Source: Leptospiraceae bacterium (lineage in GTDB: Bacteria; Spirochaetota; Leptospiria; Turneriellales; Turneriellaceae). From it: a stretch of DNA of 64,000 bases. The stretch spans positions 1 to 64,000 of the forward strand of contig JANWWS010000014.1 in NCBI GenBank assembly GCA_025055765.1, in the 5' to 3' direction. Both the position numbers and the translations under genes were made by a program. The notes beneath the pieces were generated by a model. That model was not told the DNA's origin, searched no databases, and saw nothing but the letters and a program-made list of their open reading frames with translations. Of this stretch, positions 33,374-39,293 are shown piece by piece (positions within the stretch are counted from its first letter, which is position 1; each line of letters begins with the position of its first letter).

Positions 33374-34934
33374 AAAGACGGCCGTTTTCTCATTTTTTAC
33401 CGTTCTTTCTCGTATTTTGGGACTTGGGCGTGATATGCTCAAGGCCTATGCCTTTGGTACAAACCTCTACGCAGTGGCCTTTGATGTGGCCTTTCGGCTC
33501 CCCAATATGCTGCGTAATCTGGTAGCCGAAGGGGCTCTTTCCCAGGCTTTTGTCCCACTATACGAGACCTACCGTCAAAAAAGCCAAGAAGAAGCGCGGA
33601 AAGCGGCAGGGGTAGTCGTTCAGTTTATGGTATTGATTTTGGGCTCATTTACCTTGCTCTTTGTATTTTTGGCACCGTATCTAGTTCCCTTTTTTGTGGC
33701 TCATGACTCATTGGAGAAAATACAGCTTACCGTAGAGCTAAGCCGAATTCTTTTTCCCTACATAGTGTTGATGAGTATCGCAGCCATCTACATGGCTGTG
33801 GAATATAGCCACGGTATTTTTTGGGCTCCTGCCTTTGGTCCAGCTCTCCTAAATCTTGTGACAATAATCTTTTTTGGGGGCTATCTTTGGTTGGCCAAAA
33901 TTTTACATAAAGATGAGGCTGCGGCAAAGCTAATCTATGTTTTTGCCTTTATTACACTATTTGCCGGCCTGATTCAACTTCTCTTTCAAATGGCAAGCGC
34001 CCATCTACGCCGTATAGGTCCTCTATATGGTGGTTTCGTAAAGCATCGGATCATTGGGCAGCTTTTTACCATGATGCTGCCAGCCGTTTTTTCCTCCGGA
34101 ATCCATGAAATTGGCCAACTTATCGATATATATCTGGCCACCTCTTTGGAAAACAAGGTTCCAGGTGCTGTATCGGCTCTTACTTACGCCCATAGACTGA
34201 TCCATCTGCCCATGGGGGTCTTTGGTGTCGCCCTTTCGACAGCAGCCCTGCCCCAATTATCTCGGTTTTTTGCAGCCAATGAAGAAGAAAAATTCCGAGA
34301 GAATTTATTGTTTTCTCTAAAGGCAAATGTCTTTCTTATATTGCCAGCGGTATTAGGTCTTATTGTCTTTGGTCAACCCATTGTGGGGCTTATTTTTGAG
34401 AGAGGAGAGTTCCAGAAAGCTTCTACAGAAATTACCGCCTATGCCTTACAGTTTTACGCTCCAGGAATTTTAGCTTTTTCCCTCCAAAAACTTTTTAGCT
34501 CTTCCTTTTATGCCCAAAAAGATACCAAGACACCTGCCATTATTAGTGCCCTAGTGTTGGTCCTAAATATCTCATTCTCTATTTTTTTTATGCAGTTTTT
34601 ACGGCATGGCGGCCTTGCTCTAGGCTCCTCTCTTGCAGCCTATGGGGGAGTTTTCCTCTATGTCCGGCGATATTCCCAAAGAGGACTATTAAAAAACACG
34701 GCGTTTTTTAAAAAAAGTGCGCCCATTTGGTTGTTAAATCTTATTTTTTTACTTTTTCTGCTTTTGCTAAGAAGTTTTTTCATGTCGTTTTCGTATCTCG
34801 TGCAACTAATGCTTTCAATTCCCTTAGCTGTCGGTTTCTATTGGTTTGCAGGGCGCTATCTAAAAATAGAAGAAGTCTCTCTGCTTGAGGATCTTTTGGC
34901 TAAACTATGGCAAAAAATTAGACAGCTTAGCTAG
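33348..34934 (+). CDS. murJ: Lipid II flippase MurJ
   Basis: A 528-residue integral membrane protein of the MATE-like MviN family that moves lipid II across the inner membrane for peptidoglycan synthesis. The N-terminus is typical (SRILGLGRDMLKAYAFGT, RLPNMLRNLVAEGALSQAFVP) and is followed by about 14 hydrophobic segments. The second half has the usual LPMGVFGVALSTAALPQLSR and SSSFYAQKDTKTP. I start it at ATG 33348 (MAHERETL), which overlaps lptC by 26 bases; a longer frame would overlap far more and adds nothing family-like. It ends 8 bases into the converging lyase gene. Confidence 0.94.
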   Translation: MAHERETLKKTAVFSFFTVLSRILGLGRDMLKAYAFGTNLYAVAFDVAFRLPNMLRNLVAEGALSQAFVPLYETYRQKSQEEARKAAGVVVQFMVLILGSFTLLFVFLAPYLVPFFVAHDSLEKIQLTVELSRILFPYIVLMSIAAIYMAVEYSHGIFWAPAFGPALLNLVTIIFFGGYLWLAKILHKDEAAAKLIYVFAFITLFAGLIQLLFQMASAHLRRIGPLYGGFVKHRIIGQLFTMMLPAVFSSGIHEIGQLIDIYLATSLENKVPGAVSALTYAHRLIHLPMGVFGVALSTAALPQLSRFFAANEEEKFRENLLFSLKANVFLILPAVLGLIVFGQPIVGLIFERGEFQKASTEITAYALQFYAPGILAFSLQKLFSSSFYAQKDTKTPAIISALVLVLNISFSIFFMQFLRHGGLALGSSLAAYGGVFLYVRRYSQRGLLKNTAFFKKSAPIWLLNLIFLLFLLLLRSFFMSFSYLVQLMLSIPLAVGFYWFAGRYLKIEEVSLLEDLLAKLWQKIRQLS

Positions 34935-36411
34935 AAAAGAGAATTTTCCTTGCCAGGTTTTCAATATCCTCATTGAGGGCGCGGCTTTCTTTTATGGGGG
35001 GATAGCCATAAAGGTAAGGGGGGAACTTTTCGCAGCCCAAGTGGCATAAACCTGCCTGAGCTAAGTGATAATATTGATTTAAGGCGATGTTTAAGATAGC
35101 TAGGATCTTTGCTAAGAGATCGGTCTGTTGTAAGGCGCGCCGACTGGCCAGAGCTGCCATAGGCACAATGTCTTGGTTGTGTGTGTTTGTGGGTATGCTT
35201 AAAGTAGCATGGGGATAACACAAAGAGCGCATCTCTGCTACAAGAGCTGTGGCCAATAGCTGGGCGCCGGCTAGGGCTGATTCTCGTCCAGGTTCAAAGG
35301 CAAGCATGGCAGGGGCCTGACTGGAAGCGGGATTCAAAAGATAAAAAAGTTGCCTTTCGGCTAGGATTCCTGTTTGGGTTAACAAAGCATTGAGTCTATC
35401 TGCAGCAAAGGCAAGATTTTGGCCAAAAAAATTTCCACCATGGACAACCGCTACCTGACCATCTCTTTCTTCAAAAAAAAGGGGGTTGTCAGAGACACCA
35501 TTGACTTCCTCCTCGACAATCCTCAAAATGTGGGAGAGCTCCCCGCGAGCTGCACCCAGTATCTGAGGGGCGCAGCGCAAACTGTAGACCTCTTGCAATG
35601 ATCGCGAAGAATTCTCTATACCTAAAGTATGCTCAAGTATGAAAGCAGCACTTTGTTTTTGCCCCTCATGTTGTCGCACCTGATGATAACGGGGGTCTAA
35701 GGCAGAGCGGCGAGCTCCCAAAAGACTATAAAGGGCAGCGGTTAGCTTTTCTGCAAACAAAATGAGTCGGCGCCCCCTTATCGCAGCAAGAGCTAGTATA
35801 GCACAGGAAAAAGAAATTCCATTTACTAGGGCTAGGGCATCCCGGCTCGAATAGTCTATCTTTTGTAAGCTTAAATCCCTCATTACCTGGCAGGCATCTT
35901 TTTCATAACCATAAAAAAATCCCCGACCCTGAAAGGTTCGAAATAAATGACTTAGAGGTATAAGATCTCCTGAGGCACCCAAACTGCCAAGCTCAGGGAT
36001 TTGAGGAATAAGCCCCTCTTGTAGGAAGGGCACAAATTTTTCGGGGAGATCTGGGGTTATACCGGAATAGCCTTGGCAGACATTATGGAGTCGCAAAATT
36101 AAAGTAAGTTGGGCAATTTCCCTTTCTACTACACAGCCGCTACCGCATGCGAGATGCTCAAGTAAATTGCGTGCCTGCTCTTCTTCCCCACCGGAGCTAT
36201 AATCCACAAGGGCACCATAACCTGTATGTGTGCCGTAGATGGGTATTTTTTGGTGTAAGGCCCTTTGATAAAGAACATAGGATTTTTCCAAAGCCAAGGG
36301 GGTCTGGGGAGAAAAAGAGAGTTCTATCTTGGGGCTTTGCGCTATTTTCTCAAGCTCAAATATCTCTAAATGAGCACCAAAGCCAATTTCAACTTGCTCT
36401 ACGGCACTCAT
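34927..36411 (-). CDS. Aromatic amino-acid ammonia-lyase, probably tyrosine ammonia-lyase (PYP chromophore supply)
   Basis: A 494-residue member of the HAL/PAL/TAL family. The MIO cofactor triad is Ala146-Ser147-Gly148 in GSLGASGDLIPLSH; the catalytic Tyr lies in IYGTHTGYG near residue 59. The selectivity pair is His86-Leu87 (NLLEHLACG), as in tyrosine ammonia-lyases, rather than Ser-His (histidine) or Phe-Leu (phenylalanine). The predicted reaction is tyrosine to p-coumarate plus ammonia. It is the last gene of the PYP operon and overlaps the ligase gene by 23 bases. No other hut genes are present. The tyrosine assignment is inference from the pair plus context. Confidence 0.88.
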   Translation of the reverse strand: MSAVEQVEIGFGAHLEIFELEKIAQSPKIELSFSPQTPLALEKSYVLYQRALHQKIPIYGTHTGYGALVDYSSGGEEEQARNLLEHLACGSGCVVEREIAQLTLILRLHNVCQGYSGITPDLPEKFVPFLQEGLIPQIPELGSLGASGDLIPLSHLFRTFQGRGFFYGYEKDACQVMRDLSLQKIDYSSRDALALVNGISFSCAILALAAIRGRRLILFAEKLTAALYSLLGARRSALDPRYHQVRQHEGQKQSAAFILEHTLGIENSSRSLQEVYSLRCAPQILGAARGELSHILRIVEEEVNGVSDNPLFFEERDGQVAVVHGGNFFGQNLAFAADRLNALLTQTGILAERQLFYLLNPASSQAPAMLAFEPGRESALAGAQLLATALVAEMRSLCYPHATLSIPTNTHNQDIVPMAALASRRALQQTDLLAKILAILNIALNQYYHLAQAGLCHLGCEKFPPYLYGYPPIKESRALNEDIENLARKILFSS

Positions 36412-37765
36412 GGGAGAGAATTTTTTCTAATGATGGTTGTCTTAAGAGGGCACCTTTGTTGTCGCGCACAAAATGCTCTCTTGGACAATAGCGTAACTCG
36501 GCACGTATTTTAGGAAAATGTCTTTTTAAGAGATTTACAATCTTTTCCTGAACCTCGAGCTTTGCTTCTTCTTCGCTTATAAATAACAAGATACCTTCTT
36601 GGGGATGGGCACTAACTAAAACACAACAAGAATAGATTACTTCCTTTTGAATGAGGCTCTCTAAAAAAGAAGCTGGGAAAAACCTACCATTAGAGAGTTT
36701 TATTTCTCCCTGACCACGACCTAAGAAATAGAGTCCTTCTGGCAAAGACTGCGCAAAATCACCCGTGTTGTGCCAAAGATCCTCAAAGAGCTGCAGACCA
36801 TGGGAGGTGAAATATCCTAAAGCACGGTTTTTGCCGCGAAAGAAAAGCTTTTTACCAAAGAGTCTTGTCTCACATCCCACCGGCTGACCGAGGTAATTAG
36901 GTTGGAAAAACCCCACCTTCCCCAAGGTGATCCCCGGCGAAGCCTCGGTTTGACCGTAACCAATGCGCAATCGGCTCCCCCTTAGCTTCTCGCAAAGTTC
37001 TTGGGAAACTGGGGCCCCGCCCACCACACCGGTGGTTAATTTCCGTAAAAAACCCTCACCTGCTTTGCATGAGTAAAGCCTCTCGATCATGAGTGGCACA
37101 GCAAATAGGCCATTACAATGGTATTCTTGTGCCCAGGATAGCGCCATTTCAGGGTCTCTTGCTCCCAAAGGTGGTCGCACAAACGTGCTTTGGGCTAGGA
37201 TCCCTGCCAGGAGCTCAAGGACCAATCCAAAGCAGTGACTCCAGGGCAGGAGAGAAAGTAGCCGCGCTTGGGCTAGACCAAGTTTTGGTAGATGGGAGGC
37301 CAACACCGCAAGAAGATTTCCTTCAGAAATAGCTACAATCTTCCTCTCCCCTGTCGACCCTGAGGTCAAAAGAAGTAAGCTTATTTCAGGATATAAGGGA
37401 AGGGAGTTTTTTCTTTTGGGAGGAAGCCTCTTGGGCAAGGTTCCATCTTCTACTTCCTCACAAGAGAGGTCTAAAAACAAAGTCGGATCTACTTTACCTA
37501 AATAGACATGGGGTTCTTTTTCGGGTAGGGGACAAAAAGTATAACCCCGTCGTAAACTAGCCAGAAGGAGAGCCAGGAAAGCCACAGAAGGTCTTGCCGC
37601 TACAGCCAGGCGTGCTCCTACGGGCAAAGAGAGACTTTGCAGCTCTTTTTCCCAAAGCCTTACTGCCCAATAAAGACTCGCACCAGGGATAACGGTGTCT
37701 GAAAATATAAAAAGGGGCTTAGCCTGCCCCTTAATGGCTTTGGTCAGATGCCTTGCCAAAGACAT
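36389..37765 (-). CDS. AMP-binding acid:CoA ligase, probable p-coumarate-CoA ligase for PYP
   Basis: A 458-residue member of the acyl-adenylate-forming superfamily. It has the ATP-binding motif LLTSGSTGERK near residue 130, the A5-type motif GYGQTEASP near 270, the A7 aspartate in LWHNTGDFA and A8-like LGRGQGEIKLSNGRF. It is shorter than typical 4-coumarate:CoA ligases (over 500 residues), mainly at the N-terminus. The expected role is to activate p-coumarate to the CoA thioester that loads onto PYP. The start shares one base with the PYP stop (TGATG on the minus strand), so synthesis of the two is coupled. Substrate specificity is inferred from context only. Confidence 0.85.
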   Translation of the reverse strand: MSLARHLTKAIKGQAKPLFIFSDTVIPGASLYWAVRLWEKELQSLSLPVGARLAVAARPSVAFLALLLASLRRGYTFCPLPEKEPHVYLGKVDPTLFLDLSCEEVEDGTLPKRLPPKRKNSLPLYPEISLLLLTSGSTGERKIVAISEGNLLAVLASHLPKLGLAQARLLSLLPWSHCFGLVLELLAGILAQSTFVRPPLGARDPEMALSWAQEYHCNGLFAVPLMIERLYSCKAGEGFLRKLTTGVVGGAPVSQELCEKLRGSRLRIGYGQTEASPGITLGKVGFFQPNYLGQPVGCETRLFGKKLFFRGKNRALGYFTSHGLQLFEDLWHNTGDFAQSLPEGLYFLGRGQGEIKLSNGRFFPASFLESLIQKEVIYSCCVLVSAHPQEGILLFISEEEAKLEVQEKIVNLLKRHFPKIRAELRYCPREHFVRDNKGALLRQPSLEKILSHECRRAS

Positions 37766-38184
37766 CAGCGTTTTTGTACGAGAATAAAGTTACTGCCGGA
37801 TAGCTTATCCCGATAAAGATGCACGTTTACATTGGTGGGGCGCATTTTATAGGTAAAGGTGTAGAGAAAAAGATGATTTAAATCCCCCCTTTTTACACCT
37901 TCTTTAAAGGTCCCATAGAAAAGGTGATTGTTGGTACAAGGGGCGATTTCCTTAAAGAAGTTCTTGCCCTCTGCCTGACTCGGCGGGATTGAGGCAAGTT
38001 CTGATTCATAGCGATTATAAATTAAAATTGTGCCATGATCGTCTACCTTAACCACGCCAAAGTCCAGACTATCGAGCTCGTTACGACTCATCTGGGCTAA
38101 TTTCGTCAAAATTTCAGGACGAACAAAACTCTGCCCCGCAAGACTCTTTGCTTTCTCACGTGCTCTAGTAACTAAATCTTGCAT
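37765..38184 (-). CDS. pyp: Photoactive yellow protein (PYP) blue-light sensor
   Basis: A 139-residue PAS-fold photoreceptor. It aligns without gaps through the core of Halorhodospira PYP: LDFGVV...GTILIYN, GKNFFKEIAPCT, FYGTFKEGV and YTFTYKMRPTNVNVH. Cys83 matches the p-coumaroyl-binding Cys69; Tyr56, Glu60, Tyr108 and Met114 match Tyr42, Glu46, Tyr94 and Met100. Positions equivalent to Thr50 and Arg52 are Ala64 and Ile66, which should alter the hydrogen-bond network and chromophore gating. The N-terminal cap is about 14 residues longer. AGGAGGG precedes the ATG. It lies between a coiled-coil gene (8 bases upstream) and the ligase gene. It should be cytoplasmic. Confidence 0.95.
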   Translation of the reverse strand: MQDLVTRAREKAKSLAGQSFVRPEILTKLAQMSRNELDSLDFGVVKVDDHGTILIYNRYESELASIPPSQAEGKNFFKEIAPCTNNHLFYGTFKEGVKRGDLNHLFLYTFTYKMRPTNVNVHLYRDKLSGSNFILVQKR

Positions 38185-38192
38185 AATCCCTC

Positions 38193-38450
38193 CTATTGTT
38201 TTTTGCGTCTAACGATCACCTGGTCACACCCGGTAACCAATAGCGTTTTTCCTTCAAAACGAAGCTCCAATTCTGTCTCCTCATGCTGCTCTTTTTCTGC
38301 ATATAGGGTTGCAAGCTGCTCCTCTAAGCTCTTGACCATAGCCACGAGCTCTTGCGGATCGCTTGTCCCAAGTTCTCTCTCCAGGAACTCCTTTTCCTGA
38401 TAAAGCAACACGAGTTGGCCTTCCATACTGCCTGATTCAGGGATTTCCAT
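38193..38450 (-). CDS. Small coiled-coil protein leading the PYP operon (unknown)
   Basis: No family recognised. The 85-residue product has a helical, heptad-like middle (residues about 10-56; VLLYQEKEFLEREL, then ELVAMVKSLEEQLATLYAEK) and a short beta-like, basic tail (LELRFEGKTLLVTG...VIVRRKKQ) with one Cys75. It lacks a signal or membrane segment. ATG 38450 is preceded by a perfect AGGAGG; a longer frame upstream crosses the promoter and is rejected. It is the first gene of the PYP operon, only 8 bases before pyp, so it may be a PYP partner, oligomeriser or output protein, which is inference. Confidence 0.85.
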   Translation of the reverse strand: MEIPESGSMEGQLVLLYQEKEFLERELGTSDPQELVAMVKSLEEQLATLYAEKEQHEETELELRFEGKTLLVTGCDQVIVRRKKQ

Positions 38451-38465
38451 AATACCTCCTGAATC

Positions 38466-38494
38466 AAAATACAAATTTGTCCAATGTTTGTCAA
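38466..38494 (-). promoter_or_regulatory. Sigma-70 promoter of the PYP operon
   Basis: On the minus strand a perfect -35 TTGACA (38494-38489), a 17-base spacer and TATTTT (38471-38466) precede the coiled-coil gene. The predicted start of transcription near 38459 leaves a leader of only about 9 bases and would touch the AGGAGG site, so the real start may lie a few bases upstream. Confidence 0.6.
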
Positions 38495-38508
38495 AAATTT
38501 TGGACAAA
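38476..38508. promoter_or_regulatory. Inverted repeat, candidate operator of the PYP operon
   Basis: TTTGTCCAA (38476-38484) and TTGGACAAA (38500-38508) are perfect 9-base inverted arms separated by 15 bases. One arm fills the -35/-10 spacer and the other sits just upstream of the -35. A third, imperfect half-site (GTTTGTCAAA, 38486-38495) lies between them. This layout suits a repressor or light/redox-responsive regulator acting on the operon, and possibly on the divergent gene at 38601. Confidence 0.5.
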
Positions 38509-38600
38509 ATTTGGAATGTCTGGGAGATTTTCGGCACTTTTGCCCTTTTCATGGCATATTTCTTTTGCAGTGATACCCAAGGGGAGAGCGGAAAATTCTT

Positions 38601-39293
38601 ATGGAAAAACGAGCCGAAAAGCATACCGAAGCCCGCGCAAGCAATGTATTGGGGATTGGCATAAGTAAACTCTCTGAACTAGAAGAAAAGGTAAAAGCCT
38701 TTCGCACTATTAATCTTAATGCCAAAAAAAGGCGCTTCATCATTGCTCGTGAGCCCATATTAGACTCTGATGGAAAGGTGGTAGTTAACAAAGGAGAAGA
38801 GATAGATTTAGCCAAGGTGATTTATCTAAAAAGGCATTACAAACCCGACCATGTGTTTAAAACCTTTCAGCCGGATGAGGGAATTGTTCTGGTGTCTGAT
38901 ATGGGCACTCCTGCGGGGGTGCAGCTGACCATGGACCTCGTAACCCAAATCATGAACATAGGAGGAGGTGCCTACGAAGCTTTTATCGACAGAGTGGATA
39001 GCTTTAAAGAAATGAGCAATCTTTTAACGAAAACCTTGTTCCCTAAATTAGCTATTGTCGGCTATTTACCACGAGAAAGACTGCAAGAAGAAATTATTCA
39101 TTTTAGCCAAATCAGTAGAATGGATCCATATATCCGAATGATTGAGGTTATCCATACCACAATTAAACCTGCTCCCGTCATACCCCGATTAAAACAGGTG
39201 ATCATAACACCGGGAGATAGAGAATCGTGGGCTCGCTTTGTTTTGGAGGTAATTGCCGAATACACGAAGAACTACTCTATTGAGGAGCGCTAG
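38601..39293 (+). CDS. Hypothetical protein divergent from the PYP operon
   Basis: No family recognised. A 230-residue soluble, charged protein with an early helical segment (SKLSELEEKVKAFRTINL) and mixed alpha/beta content, including MGTPAGVQLTMDLVTQIMNIGGGAYE and a C-terminal WARFVLEVIAEYTKNYSIEER. There is no signal peptide or membrane segment. A GGGGAGAG ribosome site precedes the ATG. Its promoter region faces the PYP operon across 150 bases and contains the inverted repeat, so co-regulation is possible. It is followed 4 bases later by a secreted protein gene. Confidence 0.65.
   Translation: MEKRAEKHTEARASNVLGIGISKLSELEEKVKAFRTINLNAKKRRFIIAREPILDSDGKVVVNKGEEIDLAKVIYLKRHYKPDHVFKTFQPDEGIVLVSDMGTPAGVQLTMDLVTQIMNIGGGAYEAFIDRVDSFKEMSNLLTKTLFPKLAIVGYLPRERLQEEIIHFSQISRMDPYIRMIEVIHTTIKPAPVIPRLKQVIITPGDRESWARFVLEVIAEYTKNYSIEER

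Follow-up and report, generated by a model that had tools for sequence, protein, structure and literature searches.

A helical repeat protein encoded beside photoactive yellow protein in a Leptospiraceae bacterium, a candidate PYP partner

We describe an 85-residue protein, encoded immediately ahead of the photoactive yellow protein (PYP) gene in a Leptospiraceae bacterium, that is best explained by its sequence as a two-unit member of a previously undescribed PYP-associated repeat family. Relatives of this protein adjoin, or are fused to, PYP in two phyla, and gene fusions point onwards to the chemotaxis kinase complex. We therefore lean towards the view that this is a dedicated PYP partner that would feed the chemotaxis kinase complex, i.e., that would serve phototaxis, with binding to PYP, gating by light and the phototaxis output all predicted from gene context. 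PYP, the PAS prototype, is a textbook photoreceptor. The available text of PMC13250908 calls the signalling partner of H. halophila PYP unidentified, and that of PMC12826048 calls the PYP signal chain an important knowledge gap. The present protein is a small, single-operon candidate for this long-standing question and comes with a second candidate partner. Throughout, the window is the whole stretch of DNA analysed, 64,000 nucleotides of contig JANWWS010000014.1.

Results

The small gene has an ATG at 38450 and a stop codon at 38193, giving 85 codons on the minus strand, and pyp starts at 38184, 8 bases past this stop (Table 1). A preliminary description of this DNA had placed the gene in the same way and had given it a ribosome-binding site of its own, and both points are confirmed. 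The AGGAGG of pyp itself (38189-38194) overlaps the stop codon of the small gene. The order is small gene, pyp, AMP-binding ligase and aromatic ammonia lyase; the last two genes overlap end to start, and the end of the lyase gene abuts murJ on the opposite strand. An operon promoter had also been proposed ahead of the small gene. A promoter-like sequence is present there, but the evidence for it is weak, with 0.5 such sites expected by chance from shuffled sequences. A transcript starting from this site would give the small gene a very short leader. A divergent gene of 230 codons lies upstream of the operon (window 38601-39293), and its product has no Pfam match. A longer frame for the small gene (38193-38624) was dropped: both the Shine-Dalgarno sequence and the homologues agree with a start at the 38450 ATG, and the extension runs into the divergent gene. 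The small gene is single-copy in its own genome. It is a real gene, judging by its homologues, which occupy the equivalent place in two other genera of its own family (46-52% identity) and in another family (40-45%).

Table 1. Features of the pyp operon region in the window
Feature	Position	Strand	Remarks
85-aa PYP-associated repeat protein (P0001)	38193..38450	-	pyp operon gene 1; homologues known
Shine-Dalgarno AGGAGG of the small gene	38455..38460	-	4 nt before ATG
Sigma-70-like promoter TTGACA-17-TATTTT	38466..38494	-	weak; 0.5 sites expected by chance (shuffles)
Photoactive yellow protein, 139 aa	37765..38184	-	Y56, E60, C83 conserved; extra N-terminal stretch
AMP-binding ligase, presumed p-coumarate CoA ligase (pCL)	36389..37765	-	PF00501 5.4e-27; role suggested by operon context
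Aromatic ammonia lyase, presumed tyrosine ammonia lyase (TAL)	34927..36411	-	PF00221 6e-114; substrate suggested by operon context
Repeat unit 1, residues 9-27	38370..38426	-	helix 9-26 in model
Repeat unit 2, residues 28-59	38274..38369	-	helix 32-59 in model
C-terminal beta-hairpin, residues 60-83	38202..38273	-	conserved G74, R81, K82; related hairpin on DUF proteins

The PYP of the window matches NCBIfam TIGR02373 with an E-value of 1.7e-34, at a score (118.6 bits) below the cut-off of 143.05. Its C83, Y56 and E60 align with the chromophore cysteine and the pocket tyrosine and glutamate of the H. halophila protein, roles that we partly take as given. These roles are otherwise drawn from the available text of PMC12826048. 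As the three pocket residues are kept and solved PYPs are matched at 6.6e-32 (phmmer), the protein is a genuine PYP.

The small protein contains two copies of a unit of ~33 residues (10 of 20 positions identical at an offset of 33, equalled in 0 of 2000 shuffles), each with the core QL..LY.EKE. An AlphaFold2 model from 10 sequences, with a pLDDT of 82, places helices at residues 9-26 and 32-59 and strands at 62-66 and 69-73, forming a hairpin (62-73); its pTM is 0.49 and the packing of the helices is therefore not fixed by the model. Ten short homologues share, besides the start methionine, invariant residues at Q12, L13, L16, Y17, E21, L23, E26, E43, Q45, L46, L49, Y50, G74 and R81. The earlier reading of this protein as a coiled coil with a short basic tail was thus partly right: the helical part is more specifically two ~33-residue repeats, and the tail is better read as the end of a conserved beta-hairpin. 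No family in Pfam or NCBIfam (curated cut-offs) or among PDB sequences was matched, in agreement with the preliminary description; a search of PDB folds gave no convincing match, and 19 relatives had no Pfam or NCBIfam family in common. A match to Pfam HalOD1 (E 0.12; 12.9 of the 26.3 bits required) was discarded as chance. We define the PYP-associated repeat family by at least one QL..LY.EKE unit and a gene beside, or fused to, pyp; the window protein has two units and its gene lies 8 bp from pyp.

In the window's class (48 genomes sampled), PYP occurs in 16 genomes at 18 loci, and the repeat protein adjoins pyp at all 18. A second set consisted of 290 genomes around a 'Bacteriovoracia' genome, G062, of a Bdellovibrionota-type phylum; 11 have PYP, and 10 of these 11 loci carry the repeat, either next to pyp or fused to it. 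The total is 28 of 29 loci, with one ORF per locus and E-values of 1.2e-4 to 1.6e-37, although the genomes are related and the counts are not independent. The profile was built from the window's class alone, so that the 18 class loci supplied it and the other 10 did not. Conserved co-occurrence with PYP had been chosen beforehand as the point on which the proposed partnership could fail, and it was strongly borne out. Pairwise identities of repeat proteins and of PYPs are also correlated in a mirror-tree comparison (r = 0.92), which we do not take as proof because shared descent alone yields such a value.

The form of the protein varies. Two units and a hairpin are found in the window's family (f1) and in genera of family f6, and three or four units and a hairpin in G040. 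The forms of family f5 have no more than three units, carry an N-terminal extension and lack the hairpin. In G024 the repeat-pyp pair is duplicated in tandem (L091:5289-6952), and the two PYPs are ~55% identical. In the second phylum, five genomes (G062, G502, G517, G636, G642) have a separate repeat protein of 124-187 aa encoded directly 3' of pyp, and five others (G528, G629, G652, G662, G678) have one or two units fused to the N terminus of PYP. An AlphaFold model of one such natural fusion has a helical pair (34-57, 63-83) ahead of a confident PYP fold. The remaining pyp genome, G655, has neither the repeat nor the second protein described below. Its PYP (L157:5838-6197; 119 aa) is divergent, and by eye the frames around it resemble those of histidine kinases and response regulators.

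The repeat can be recognised specifically. A unit profile trained on the class, run against 363 ORFs from 12 loci of the second phylum, matched only proteins encoded next to pyp, one of which appears twice because its locus is present in duplicate, and the five PYPs with a fused repeat (E 7.7e-7 to 7.2e-5), with the next-best ORF at 0.42. Among 434 ORFs at six pyp loci of Pseudomonadota, a negative control drawn from 6 of 12 plasmid records, the best E-value was 1.2. Across 392 genomes of the window's phylum (PYP itself was searched for in the class plus 61 genomes), a profile of the short form matched 22 at E <= 0.01: the 16 class genomes with pyp, each with a best E-value of 3.2e-4 or lower, and six others at 0.0035-0.0097. 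These six spirochaete matches, in unrelated frames of non-pyp genomes, were discarded as generic coiled-coil matches, as were matches in 16 genomes without pyp (E 1.6e-5 to 9.7e-4), mostly to ORFs of 300-1400 aa.

A second protein accompanies most of these loci. It is an unnamed helical protein of 136-182 aa, labelled DUF here; in most of f5 its gene comes after pyp, in parts of f6 after pCL. In the two sets together, DUF was found in 23 of 27 genomes with pyp and in 0 of 311 without it, with a profile whose rows came from 9 of the 23 DUF genomes, the other 14 contributing none. In the class these are 13 of 48 genomes (E <= 0.01), all within the 16 that have PYP, and in the second set 10 of 290 (E <= 0.001), which is every PYP genome except G655. 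The window's genome, which is 99.4% complete, yielded no DUF at E <= 0.01 with one profile or at E <= 10 with another, and none was detected in G041 and G043 (77-78% complete). In G004, whose PYP is 75% identical to that of the window, the DUF gene sits between the lyase gene and murJ; as these two abut in the window, DUF looks to have been lost there.

A C-terminal hairpin is present on both the repeat protein and DUF in G003, G004, G024, G028, G033, G038 and G040:C3, and repeat forms without a hairpin pair with a DUF without one. Among 722 ORFs, all those that a hairpin profile matched at E <= 0.1 encode either repeat proteins or DUF-like ones. On the DUFs themselves it scored E < 0.01 in G028, G033 and G038, 0.095 in G040:C3 and 8.1 in G024, and the hairpins on the G003 and G004 DUFs were judged by eye. 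As a guess from sequence, the two hairpins could form a joint beta-sheet, although the pattern also tracks lineage.

Fusions extend these associations to chemotaxis. Besides the repeat-PYP fusions, a repeat-DUF fusion occurs once: at G040:C9 a 245-aa protein adjoining pyp combines DUF, three repeats and a hairpin. DUF is fused to a CheA-like kinase five times and, with weaker support, to a CheW-like domain. Each of the five fused-type genomes has, directly upstream of its repeat-PYP gene, a gene for a 684-731-aa protein with DUF at its end; of the three scanned in full, all have Hpt and HATPase domains and one has a CheW match just above the cut-off. Four separate-type genomes encode a 481-485-aa protein with an N-terminal DUF and a CheW-like end, in which CheW is matched in three and exceeds the cut-off in one. 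The standalone and CheA-fused DUFs align with an hhalign E-value of 1.9e-6 and a probability of 90. Taken together, the fusions repeat-PYP, repeat-DUF and DUF-CheA/CheW suggest a chain PYP - repeat - DUF - CheA/CheW. At 4 of the 18 loci of the class (G020, G025, G047, G040:C3) the gene of the repeat protein has a chemoreceptor gene as its neighbour, in partial agreement with Xing et al. (PMC9664959), the available text of which reports that Leptospira PYPs are always beside chemoreceptors without sensory domains. Next to the pyp operon of the window no chemotaxis gene was seen. CheA and CheW genes lie elsewhere in the genome, which has five CheW-domain matches, two of them in ORFs of 649 and 925 aa taken as CheA; this genome thus has the CheA/CheW part of a PYP-linked chemotaxis module and no detected DUF.

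Discussion

The preliminary description had proposed that the small protein is a partner or signal output for PYP, and this idea is partly supported by the repeat-PYP fusions and by the chain of fusions that reaches CheA/CheW. The repeat units, DUF as another partner and the link to chemotaxis are additions to it. A possible mechanism is as follows. The pCL and TAL genes of the operon would make the chromophore, and blue light would change PYP. The repeat helices, which in some genomes are fused just before the PYP N terminus, may read this change by docking on PYP in one light state, most likely near its N-terminal region. In most relatives DUF would then connect the repeat protein with CheA/CheW or with a chemoreceptor close by, and the similar beta-hairpins may join the two proteins. 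As DUF was not detected in the window's organism, the repeat protein may act there alone or on an unseen partner. We give about even chances to this reading in full, in which the repeat protein is a natural signalling partner of PYP, of the kind long sought, and a light-gated helical adaptor, with or without DUF, into CheA/CheW in two phyla.

It is also conceivable, if unlikely, that the output of PYP in the window's organism goes to a non-chemotaxis target, such as gene expression or c-di-GMP, and that the chemotaxis link belongs only to other lineages. The genome has neither a detected DUF nor a chemotaxis gene seen beside the operon, and the neighbours of Pseudomonadota PYPs are GGDEF and EAL proteins and histidine kinases, as the available text of PMC12826048 also reports. 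However, no GGDEF, EAL or regulator was present among six operon-region genes scanned, and the fusions point to CheA/CheW. We think it rather improbable that the protein is an assembly factor, which would help apo-PYP to fold, to dimerise or to take the chromophore from pCL and would have no signalling role. Its gene shares the window operon with pyp and the pCL-like and TAL-like genes and precedes pyp, as that of a chaperone could; yet at G040:C9, where pyp adjoins the repeat-DUF fusion, neither pCL nor TAL was recognisable by eye within 14 kb, Pseudomonadota PYPs manage without a repeat (none at six loci), and the repeat-PYP fusion comes after a CheA-like gene. A generic coiled-coil hitchhiker, whose likeness among neighbours is merely one of composition, would fit the helical, charged sequence and the weak matches to long coiled-coil-like frames, but is very hard to reconcile with the invariant residues (Q, L, Y, E, G and R), the fixed site beside pyp, the single match per locus and the confinement of non-pyp matches to six of 392 genomes at the weak E-values above, and is already contradicted by the profile results at the 12 second-phylum loci and overall. 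The preferred reading remains that of a PYP partner leading to chemotaxis.

Known systems resemble this arrangement in part. A separate protein that interacts with PYP has reportedly been found by Kim et al. in 2021, for Rc-PYP of Rhodobacter capsulatus. It is likened to the repeat protein by description only, and differs in that no repeat was present at the six Pseudomonadota pyp loci. In CetA/CetB energy taxis of Campylobacter jejuni, a soluble PAS-fold sensor acts with a separate chemoreceptor signalling protein, and in its available text the study of Xing et al. 2022 (PMC9664959) proposes such a scheme for Leptospira PYP; there PAS protein and receptor pair directly, whereas here the repeat protein and DUF would be additional links and DUF is fused to CheA/CheW. 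The MCP-PYP fusion of Nitrincola alkalilacustris likewise ties PYP to chemotaxis, but as a direct receptor fusion for which the available text of PMC12826048 reports no repeat protein. The Halorhodospira operon has the identical order of pyp, pCL and TAL, although no repeat gene ahead of pyp is mentioned in the same text. The repeat protein is not mentioned in the available texts of PMC12826048, PMC9664959 and PMC13250908; 'coil' is absent from the main text of PMC12826048, and one 'coiled-coil' is counted somewhere in that record. Earlier notice of the protein may exist in subscription papers (Meyer 2012, Kim 2021) or in supplements.

If the preferred reading is true, PYP, repeat protein, DUF and kinase would form a four-part phototaxis input module, new with respect to the published texts as far as these were available. 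The natural fusions suggest which parts touch, and recombinant proteins make the partner question directly testable. A natural light-gated PYP-binding helix, if real, would be of use in optogenetics as well.

Some further proteins deserve mention. In each of the five genomes with a fused repeat-PYP gene, that gene is followed by one for a 164-174-aa protein (L148:3039-3557, L149:6421-6942, L150:6320-6814, L151:6725-7249, L152:6043-6558), and the one scanned had no Pfam match. Two proteins encoded directly upstream of pyp in two genomes (L153:4698-5894, 398 aa; L154:7243-8550, 435 aa) look alike, the first having no Pfam match. In the window's class, G043, G041 and G033 encode, away from pyp, proteins of 264-272 aa (L087:1020-1838, L088:1222-2016 and L089:2207-3013, respectively) with a like hairpin at the end and a weakly DUF-like helical start, which by sequence are possibly a paralogue of the second partner.
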